This document shows, one piece after another, positions 1-2,600 of a stretch of 8,678 bases of DNA (the first letter of the stretch is position 1; every line of letters begins with the position of its first letter). The notes beneath the pieces are model-generated. The model did not search any database. It was given only the letters and a program-made list of their open reading frames with translations, and was not told where the DNA came from. A program made the position numbers and the translations under genes. Source of the DNA: an uncultured Rhizobiaceae group bacterium (GTDB lineage Bacteria; Pseudomonadota; Alphaproteobacteria; Rhizobiales; Rhizobiaceae); contig CAJQOR010000442.1 of the NCBI GenBank assembly GCA_905479965.1, forward strand, positions 1 to 8,678, given 5' to 3'.

Positions 1-1766
1 AAAGCATGGCTTGGCTCAAGTGCTGGAATAATACCTTCAACACGTGTCAAAAGCTGAAAAGCCTCTAGAGCTTCGTGATCCATAATTGGCACATATTCAA
101 CACGCCCAGTATCTTTTAGCCACGAATGCTCTGGTCCAATCCCAGGATAATCAAGACCTGCAGAAATGGAATGTCCTTCTTCAATTTGGCCATCACTATC
201 TTGCAAGAGATATGTTCTGTTACCGTGAAGGACCCCAGGATTACCTGCAGTTAGTGATGCGCAGTGTTCATCTGTATCAAGGCCTTTACCCCCAGCTTCA
301 ACACCAACGATTTCAATATCCTTGTCATCAAGGAATGGATGGAACAAACCAATCGCATTTGAACCGCCGCCAACAGCAGCAACAAGCATATCTGGCACAC
401 GGCCTTCACGCTCTATCATTTGCTCACGCGTTTCTTGACCAATAACGGATTGGAAATCGCGTACCATTTCAGGGTATGGATGAGGACCAGCGGCCGTACC
501 AATGATGTAATATGTATCATCAACATTGGTCACCCAATCGCGCAACGCTTCGTTCATTGCATCTTTAAGCGTTCCGTTACCTGCAGTAACAGGGATCACT
601 TCTGCGCCTAAAAGCTTCATACGAAATACATTTGGCGCCTGACGTTCAACATCTTTTGCACCCATATAAACAACACAAGGCAATCCAAAACGCGCCGCAA
701 CGGTTGCAGAGGCAACACCGTGTTGTCCGGCACCTGTTTCTGCAATAATGCGCTTTTTACCCATGCGTTTTGCAAGAAGGATCTGGCCAAGACAATTGTT
801 GATCTTGTGAGAACCTGTGTGGTTCAATTCATCGCGTTTGAAATAAATCTTCGCGCCGCCTAATTCTTCAGTCAATCGCTCAGCAAAATATAACGGGCTA
901 GGACGGCCAGTATAATGCTTGTTCAAATCTTCCAGTTCATCTTTGAATGTCTGGTCAGTTTTCGCAAAATCCCAGTGCTCTTGCAGATCAAGGATCAGCG
1001 GCATTAAAGTTTCAGCAACAAAGCGGCCACCATAAATGCCAAAGCGCCCATCTTCGTCAGGACCTTCCCTGAGTGAGTTAGGTAATGATTGTTGGTTCAC
1101 GCGTTTCTCCTCGGATCCAAATTTTGAACATGATTTGATAGCGCTAAAAAAGCCACCCATCAATTCTTTATCTTTAACGCCCGGTTTAATTTCTATCCCC
1201 GAAGAGACATCCATTCCAATTGCATGTGTGTTATTGATCGCCTCACACACATTTTGAGCATTTAGCCCACCTGACAACATATATTCAACACTTTGATCTA
1301 AGCTTTCAAGCAAGCGCCAATCAAAGGAAACACCATTTCCGCCCGGTATTTGTGAAACCTTTGGTGCTTTGGCATCAAATAACAAGCAATCAGCGACGCC
1401 AATATAGGGTTTTATCTTTTCCAAATCGTCCGCATCACAAATGGAAAATGCCTTCATAACAGGCAGGTTATACCGTGCTTTAACCTCACTCACGCGCTCA
1501 GGTGTTTCGCCACCATGTAGCTGCATCATGTCAGGTTTAAGGACATGATTGATCTCATCCAGGTATTCATCGCTTGCATTGACTGTCACCGCCACAATTT
1601 GCGACTTACCGCGCGCAGGCACCGCTGCCGCTGCCGCTTCTTTTGGCGATACATGTCGAGGGCTTTTCTCAAAGAAAATAAACCCGATCTGGTGAGCACC
1701 ATTCTGCGTGGAATGCGCAACCATTTCAGCAGTTTTCAAGCCACAAGTTTTGATCAACATAGTCAT
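1..1766 (-). CDS. trpF-trpB: Fused phosphoribosylanthranilate isomerase / tryptophan synthase beta chain (TrpF-TrpB), 3' end outside window
   Basis: This one open frame covers two enzymes of tryptophan synthesis. Residues 1-222 are TrpF, a (beta/alpha)8 barrel that isomerises phosphoribosylanthranilate to CdRP. Visible motifs are KTCG with the catalytic Cys8, [22 protein letters not shown] with catalytic Asp131, [10 protein letters not shown] and [14 protein letters not shown]. From about residue 223 it is TrpB, the PLP enzyme that joins indole to serine: [36 protein letters not shown] with PLP lysine K321, AETGAGQHG with E343, and GGGSN at 466-470. I traced the frame through the junction and found no stop. 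About 40 C-terminal TrpB residues lie beyond the left edge. The start is ATG 1766 or ATG 1760 (MTMLIKTCG or MLIKTCG); neither has a clear ribosome binding site. In relatives trpF and trpB are normally separate adjacent genes, with trpA next. Both domain assignments are certain; whether the protein is always made fused is inference. Confidence 0.9.
1098..1112 (-). promoter_or_regulatory. Internal ribosome binding site and GTG start for stand-alone TrpB
   Basis: Within the fused frame, GAGGAG (1112-1107) is followed by a six-base spacer and GTG (1100-1098). The peptide from this GTG begins [16 protein letters not shown], which is the usual length and composition of a TrpB amino terminus. From there the in-window TrpB is 366 residues, with its PLP lysine at residue 99. 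The same bases contain a TGA in the +1 frame (1099-1097) overlapping the GTG, as in the overlapping stop-start junctions common between operon genes. It suggests that free TrpB is made by reinitiation or direct entry; this is inferred from sequence only. Confidence 0.6.
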
Positions 1767-1853
1767 AGTTTCGCAAGTGCCATGAATTTCGCTCAGAGTC
1801 GAGACATTTGATGAAAATGCGGCAATTAGCTCGCAAAAACATCCAAGATTTAG

Positions 1854-2600
1854 CTAACCGAAATCAACGGCATGCAACAAACTGCCGTTTTTCTTGAGCC
1901 ACTTTTTACCTTCTTGCATATGTGGGCACAAACTTTCGCATAATTGCCAAAATTGCGGCTCGTGGTTCATCTCAACCAAATGCGCTACTTCATGCGCGGT
2001 CAAGTAATCTAAAACGTAGGATGGCGCCATGATAATGCGCCATGAATAAGACAACCTACCGTCAGATGAGCACGAGCCCCAACGACTGCGTGTATCGCGC
2101 AATGTGATCGACTTATATGGCTTTCCAAGTTGCTCAGCATGATAATTTGTGAATTTTTCTAAATCGTCACGGGCTTGTTTTTTTAAATAATCGGCTATCC
2201 GACGGTTTAAATGTTCCGCGCCTCCAGACACGCGCAAGATATGTTGGTCCCCGTCGCTAATGGCTTCGGTAACACCACGAATTTCCCCTGTGCGTTCGAT
2301 CACATGATCAATCCCGCGAATAGGGATGGTGTGTCCTTCACGAAGGCCGGTTTCTTTTGGAAATTTTGCAAGTTTGGTTAGGATCCAGCCGTGGTATTTG
2401 TCCAGAAATTCAGATATTTCCCCTTCATCTAGATGGGGCGGAACTGTAAGGCTTAGCCCGCGTCCGCCAGGGTCAATACGAAGCGTAATTCGTTTAGCGC
2501 GTTTGTTGGACTTAATTTTGAGCGGCAAAATGCGATCGCCAACCGCTAAAGTGCGGTTGGCTGGTCGTGGGCTCGATCTCTTTTTCGCAAACGAAAACAT
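1854..2600 (-). CDS. YgjP/DUF45-family zinc metallopeptidase (M48-like), 248 residues
   Basis: This is a predicted cytoplasmic zinc metalloprotein of the YgjP/DUF45 family, distantly related to SprT and M48 peptidases; no substrate can be given. The fold signature is in the C-terminal half: RSRWGSCSSDGRLSYSW at 171-187, then the zinc motif HEVAH at 203-207 and the third ligand His213 in MNHEPQFW. This RxRWGSCxxxG ... HExxH ... NHxxxFW order is characteristic. The N-terminal half (about 25-130) is the usual beta-rich region, with SNKRAKRITLRID near its start. Length is typical. There is no signal peptide or membrane segment. The start is ATG 2600; its A-rich leader has no obvious Shine-Dalgarno sequence. 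The terminator upstream implies its own promoter in 2601-2650. It ends 87 bases before trpF with no terminator between, so read-through into trpF-trpB is possible. Confidence 0.85.
   Translation of the reverse strand: MFSFAKKRSSPRPANRTLAVGDRILPLKIKSNKRAKRITLRIDPGGRGLSLTVPPHLDEGEISEFLDKYHGWILTKLAKFPKETGLREGHTIPIRGIDHVIERTGEIRGVTEAISDGDQHILRVSGGAEHLNRRIADYLKKQARDDLEKFTNYHAEQLGKPYKSITLRDTRSRWGSCSSDGRLSYSWRIIMAPSYVLDYLTAHEVAHLVEMNHEPQFWQLCESLCPHMQEGKKWLKKNGSLLHAVDFG

Follow-up and report, generated by a model that had tools for sequence, protein, structure and literature searches.

The locus analyzed here comes from a marine rhizobium-like bacterium in which two neighboring tryptophan-synthesis genes appear to be read as one, and it raises the questions of whether trpF and trpB are truly fused, how they came to be joined, and whether the tether between the two enzymes matters. 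The window, i.e., the entire 8,678-nt stretch of DNA, contains on its minus strand, from position 1766 to position 3, one stop-less frame that encodes a complete TrpF followed by TrpB according to the list of open reading frames and their translations. The frame opens with an ATG (1766-1764) and exits at the window edge after 588 aa (Table 1); by comparison with P0003, a 406-aa TrpB described below, the C-terminal ~40 residues of TrpB lie beyond the window. A Pfam scan placed PRAI (PF00697) at residues 6 to 207 with 157.2 bits (membership threshold, >22.7 bits) and PALP at residues 287 to 582. Among the NCBIfam models, the TrpF equivalog NF002295 matched residues 1 to 213 with 290.8 bits (cutoff, 216), and the trpB model TIGR00263 matched residues 240 to 588 with 586.6 bits despite the cut C terminus (cutoff, 392.45 bits). 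PRAI and TrpB domains thus occur in a single frame without a stop, which bears out the first-pass annotation of this DNA, and at the level of sequence the open-frame fusion is real. The complete protein is expected to be ~628 aa long, i.e., 222 residues plus a 406-aa TrpB like that of P0003. Both parts have been under purifying selection relative to the related locus L088 (dN 0.056 and dS 0.96 for TrpF; dN 0.020 and dS 0.87 for TrpB). A structure model of the fused protein (30 rows, with the end of TrpB missing) predicted most of TrpF well except residues 136 to 145, gave pLDDT values below 50 for residues 216 to 255, and predicted TrpB poorly; with a mean pLDDT of 66.6 and a pTM of 0.42, it was set aside for claims about assembly.

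Table 1. Features of the trpF-trpB frame, in window coordinates.
Feature	Position	Strand	Evidence or comment
Single open frame, TrpF-TrpB	3..1766	-	588 aa, extends past window edge; ORF list, Pfam, NCBIfam
TrpF (PRA isomerase) part, residues 1-214	1125..1766	-	PF00697, 157.2 bits; NF002295, 290.8 bits
Former intergenic spacer, now coding, residues 215-222 (KFGSEEKR)	1101..1124	-	Comparison with L088 and L089
AAA codon, residue 215; TAA in L088 and L089	1122..1124	-	Junction comparison
GAG codon, residue 219; TAG in L088 and L089	1110..1112	-	Junction comparison
GAGGAG, Shine-Dalgarno-like, 6 bases before GTG	1107..1112	-	Pairing, -8.7 kcal/mol
GTG, in-frame TrpB start as annotated in P0003	1098..1100	-	Comparison with P0003
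TrpB part, 366 codons counted from GTG	3..1100	-	TIGR00263, 586.6 bits

How the join arose can be read from L088 and L089 (genomes G248 and G018), which represent the two nearest species available as DNA and whose TrpB proteins are ~97% identical to that of the window (10 and 11 differences, respectively, in 366 residues). Together with L087 (G121) and G190, they make up four genomes of one genus. L088 and L089 both read TCG-TAA-TTT-GGA-TCC-TAG-GAG-AAA-CGC-GTG across the junction, whereas the window reads TCA-AAA-TTT-GGA-TCC-GAG-GAG-AAA-CGC-GTG. Since the spacer has the same length and frame in all three and differs in TAA and TAG versus AAA and GAG, the genes were joined by substitutions and not by an indel. 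The first-pass annotation had proposed that a one-base difference at the junction, restoring a stop, might expose the fusion as an artifact. Read by eye, the off-frame TGA (1099-1097) and TAA (1080-1078) that it named are at those positions, but L088 and L089 differ from the window by two stop codons in the same frame, and a frameshift or indel artifact is rejected as the main account, given the matching spacer. Its count of about 20 linking residues was fair, except that only 8 codons, the former spacer, form a new joint; the residues downstream are TrpB's own N terminus, starting at the GTG (1100-1098).

TrpF proteins P0122, P0123, P0127, and P0128 stop at the equivalent Ser, and these ends, together with the stops in L088 and L089, make a stop after this Ser ancestral near the window by parsimony. 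As judged from the protein termini, the end of TrpF is variable in the wider group: P0124 and P0125 extend nine residues beyond that Ser, and P0129 and P0130 have different ends. The TrpF protein P0121 (89% identical) has the C terminus SCS-KLDPRRDA, with Lys after Ser as in the window; since it continues like the window, either the first stop would have been lost in a lineage containing both or the change would have spread by recombination. In a hand reading of the protein alone, the P0121 end fits a spacer shorter by one base, with a TGA overlapping the TrpB GTG. The one-base difference sought by the first-pass annotation would thus be matched by the P0121 protein but not by the DNA of L088 and L089, which has the window's spacer length and frame.

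The start signals of trpB are still present within the fused frame. Under a simple pairing model that assumes an anti-Shine-Dalgarno sequence, GAGGAG was matched or exceeded at 12 of the 577 remaining positions of the frame (positions overlap and are not independent), and the trpF ATG showed little pairing (-1.5). The corresponding value for the TrpB starts of both L088 and L089 was -7.3 kcal/mol, compared with -8.7 kcal/mol in the window. L087, a second fused locus described below, has a TTG at the TrpB start and likewise a value of -7.3 kcal/mol, but 146 of 589 positions were as strong, so its site is not distinguished. Because the GTG and its Shine-Dalgarno sequence are retained in the window, free TrpB is expected beside the fusion; it is probably produced by internal initiation, and we infer that free TrpF would not be produced by ordinary termination. 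The suggestion that tethering is the point of the arrangement is unsupported here.

Fusion proved to be unusual in the group, as the first-pass annotation had expected. Among the 80 loci listed, one (L076) was excluded because no trpF lies nearby. In the remaining 79, trpF lies no more than 1,500 bases upstream of trpB (in L074 the two genes are 1,080 bases apart), and in none of them is the frame open across the junction. We also searched three draws of genomes for same-frame matches spanning both genes. In the family draw (family of G001), 386 of 394 genomes matched, and G121 alone among the 46 spanning rows listed lacked a stop. For the class draw, 28 spanning rows were listed (matches in 304 of 385 genomes), and for the phylum draw, 50 (matches in 386 of 398), with G121 again the sole stop-less row in each; both draws were centered on G121, which is therefore present by construction, and for the other genomes the counts are 0 of 27 and 0 of 49. 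These rows were counted by eye among the best matches listed, the draws overlap, and fusions with a very divergent TrpF could escape such counts.

A protein-database search for relatives, in line with a check recommended in the first-pass annotation, listed fused models: there were 9 (P0001, P0002, P0004 to P0007, P0010, P0015, and P0017) among the best 120 of 7,999 scored proteins, and a search with the TrpF part yielded a further one, P0241 (6 proteins). L087 apart, these models were examined as protein sequences. By eye, the TrpF ends of P0005 and P0015 appear frameshifted, and the long linker of the fused model P0007 resembles a translated intergenic repeat between TrpF and TrpB. P0002, from a eukaryote collection, is a TrpF-TrpB fusion 68% identical to that of the window, with the TrpF end missing; it probably derives from a bacterial contaminant or associate.

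A second case is L087, from G121 of the same genus, where TrpF and TrpB also form one frame (633 aa) without a stop. It differs from the window in its linker sequence and in having TTG, not GTG, at the TrpB start. P0001 (ENA) has this 633-aa frame as well, differing at 3 residues, and shares these features. The genomes G121, G248, G018, and G190 each gave one PRAI match, so G121 has no TrpF of the PRAI family besides the fused frame. The TrpB part of L087 differs by 1 residue from the EG35 TrpB (P0008) and is identical to P0009 (NCBI), a 406-aa TrpB from Lentilitoribacter sp. Alg239-R112 that was thus annotated from inside an open frame of the L087 type. The stop losses in the window and in L087 appear to have been independent, given that the linkers differ and that the TrpF protein P0126, whose longest contig equals in length that of the TrpB P0013 (22,997 bases), ends before the join.

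A TrpB very similar to that of the window is P0003, a JGI 406-aa protein found on 18 contigs, which starts at the same GTG and has 3 differences in 366 residues (99% identical). Either the P0003 contigs have a stop upstream or, as with P0009, an open frame contains the start that the gene caller chose for TrpB. The best 120 hits of the search with TrpF included no separate TrpF more than 89% identical, which favors an open frame in these contigs; no fused protein closer than 83 to 84% was found among the best 120 of the 7,999 scored proteins, which does not.

The explanation that we consider probable is that the window carries a recent fusion by stop loss, from which both fused and free TrpB would be made, TrpF being a passenger that is tolerated or slightly beneficial. 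In this scheme, trpF and trpB would initially have shared a frame, separated by a short spacer, and point mutations would have removed the TAA that terminated TrpF and the next in-frame TAG. Ribosomes starting at trpF would continue through trpB, yielding a single polypeptide of ~628 aa (TrpF, an 8-residue joint, and TrpB), while the retained GTG and Shine-Dalgarno sequence would give free TrpB through internal initiation; free TrpF would be lost. The beta subunits that assemble into tryptophan synthase would then be a mixture, some free and some carrying TrpF. The production of both polypeptides and the near-neutrality of the fusion are what we infer from these sequence features. Counted against this explanation are the annotation of P0003 as separate, the varying TrpF ends, the indistinct Shine-Dalgarno sequence of L087, and the poor structure model.

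Formally, the fusion could instead be a selected bifunctional enzyme in which the TrpF tether aids flux or fixes stoichiometry, perhaps in an assembly with TrpC. Two stop-less frames in one genus, apparently independent, and the 9 alphaproteobacteria-like fused models among the best 120 relatives listed would fit this reading. However, TrpC acts between the TrpF and TrpB steps (the first-pass annotation was right on this textbook point), and the fused enzymes are thus not consecutive in the pathway; moreover, the window's join is a recent one and is missing from the two nearest species, TrpB has kept its own start, and fused frames are rare among the loci and rows listed. We therefore regard selection for a bifunctional enzyme as unlikely. 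An error of sequencing or assembly is also improbable, as is a rare variant in a population that normally has the stop and separate genes. The window is a single contig, P0003 is annotated as separate, and the P0121 TrpF ends before TrpB, all of which would agree with such an account, but it needs two substitutions exactly at both stop codons with no indel; a fused frame was found in L087 and again in P0001, and the lack of a separate TrpF closer than 89% among the best 120 hits, where one would be expected if the P0003 contigs had a stop, argues indirectly against it. That the change of TAG to GAG was favored for a stronger TrpB Shine-Dalgarno sequence, with fusion as a by-product and nearly all TrpB coming from internal initiation, is very improbable, for although the substitution falls on the initial base of GAGGAG and pairing is stronger than in L088 and L089, the difference is small, comes from the simple model with its assumed anti-Shine-Dalgarno sequence, and accounts for neither the loss of the TAA nor L087. 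In favoring a recent stop-loss fusion, we also give little credence to a more speculative scenario for this marine genus, in which the trpF stop was lost at least twice because a TrpF-TrpB tether is useful, and the retained internal start supplies free TrpB, so that fused and free beta subunits come from one gene in a set ratio, along with a TrpF-decorated alpha-beta complex.

The first-pass annotation could not say whether such fusions had been described; they have, in sources PMC6736304, PMC10239878, and PMC11237513 and as the model NF010376, and the fusion in the window belongs to an already known, rare kind. The passages on CBU1155 of Coxiella burnetii describe a fused trpF-trpB gene (PMC6736304 and PMC10239878) that, as in the window, joins PRA isomerase and TrpB; C. 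burnetii differs in being a pathogen among the gammaproteobacteria, and some of its trp genes are broken. Whether the Coxiella fusion protein works is unknown according to the relevant passage of PMC6736304. A rare trpF-trpB fusion in bacteria and archaea is described as cluster 830.1 in PMC11237513; the same two genes are fused there. The TrpC-TrpF fusion of Escherichia coli, named in passages of PMC2395257 and PMC4755613, also fuses PRA isomerase to another pathway enzyme but joins consecutive steps, with TrpC and not TrpB as the partner. Passages of a Sargasso Sea survey (PMC2395257) name E-G, C-F, E-PLPDE_IV, and F-TruA fusions, with F-B not seen among them, and we did not find the fusion of this Lentilitoribacter-like genus in our searches of open-license PMC papers. 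The NCBIfam model NF010376 (PRK13803; bifunctional PRA isomerase/TrpB) has the same domain order, and its profile aligns along the whole frame. The window, whose truncated frame reaches position 558 of the 600 in the profile, scored 701 bits, and the complete relative P0001 scored 743.2 bits, both below the cutoff of 819 bits; since a gene pair with stops between the genes (G936) scored 752.2 bits, this score cannot separate fused from unfused arrangements.

The window holds a well-resolved young fusion by stop-codon loss, in which the nearest two species keep the stops, the joint is 8 codons long, and the downstream start signals are present. Alongside L087, it supplies natural before-and-after comparisons for asking whether fusions of nonconsecutive enzymes arise by neutral chance in tightly packed operons or through selection. 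As for a role of the tether, nothing in the sequence evidence shows that it matters. A practical consequence is that genomes of this group could lack a trpF annotation wherever TrpB is annotated from inside a fused frame; P0009 shows the TrpB side of this.

Synonymous divergence is markedly lower around the junction than outside it. Between the window and L088, synonymous differences affect 13 of 87 codons in window positions 1032 to 1316 (codons 151 to 245), compared with 59 of 127 and 124 of 321 codons outside this block; between L088 and L089, the block shows 7 of 88, and 0 of 500 shuffles were as low. Among 5,721 other locus pairs (not independent, as several loci are possible per genome), none had a block-to-outside ratio of ≤0.4 (lowest, 0.43; median, 1.2), and a general RNA constraint at the junction was rejected since the trough of this genus is absent from them. 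RNA folding there was no stronger than in shuffles (z values of 0.74, 0.25, and 0.56). The trough is probably a block recombined within the genus, which is likelier than RNA constraint. A gene encoding 248 aa lies upstream of trpF (window 1854-2600), and L087 has a 248-aa counterpart upstream of its trpF; in our own reading of the L087 sequence, a trpA-like ORF follows trpB with a one-base overlap, whereas the corresponding region of the window's locus lies past the window edge. Finally, a six-codon minus-strand ORF, MALAKL (window 1763-1783), has a TGA that overlaps the trpF ATG. The equivalent upstream start in L088 and L089, at a distance of 18 bases, shares the trpF frame, and P0122 and P0138 begin with MALAK in frame; the short ORF is possibly a coupled leader or a shifted start.
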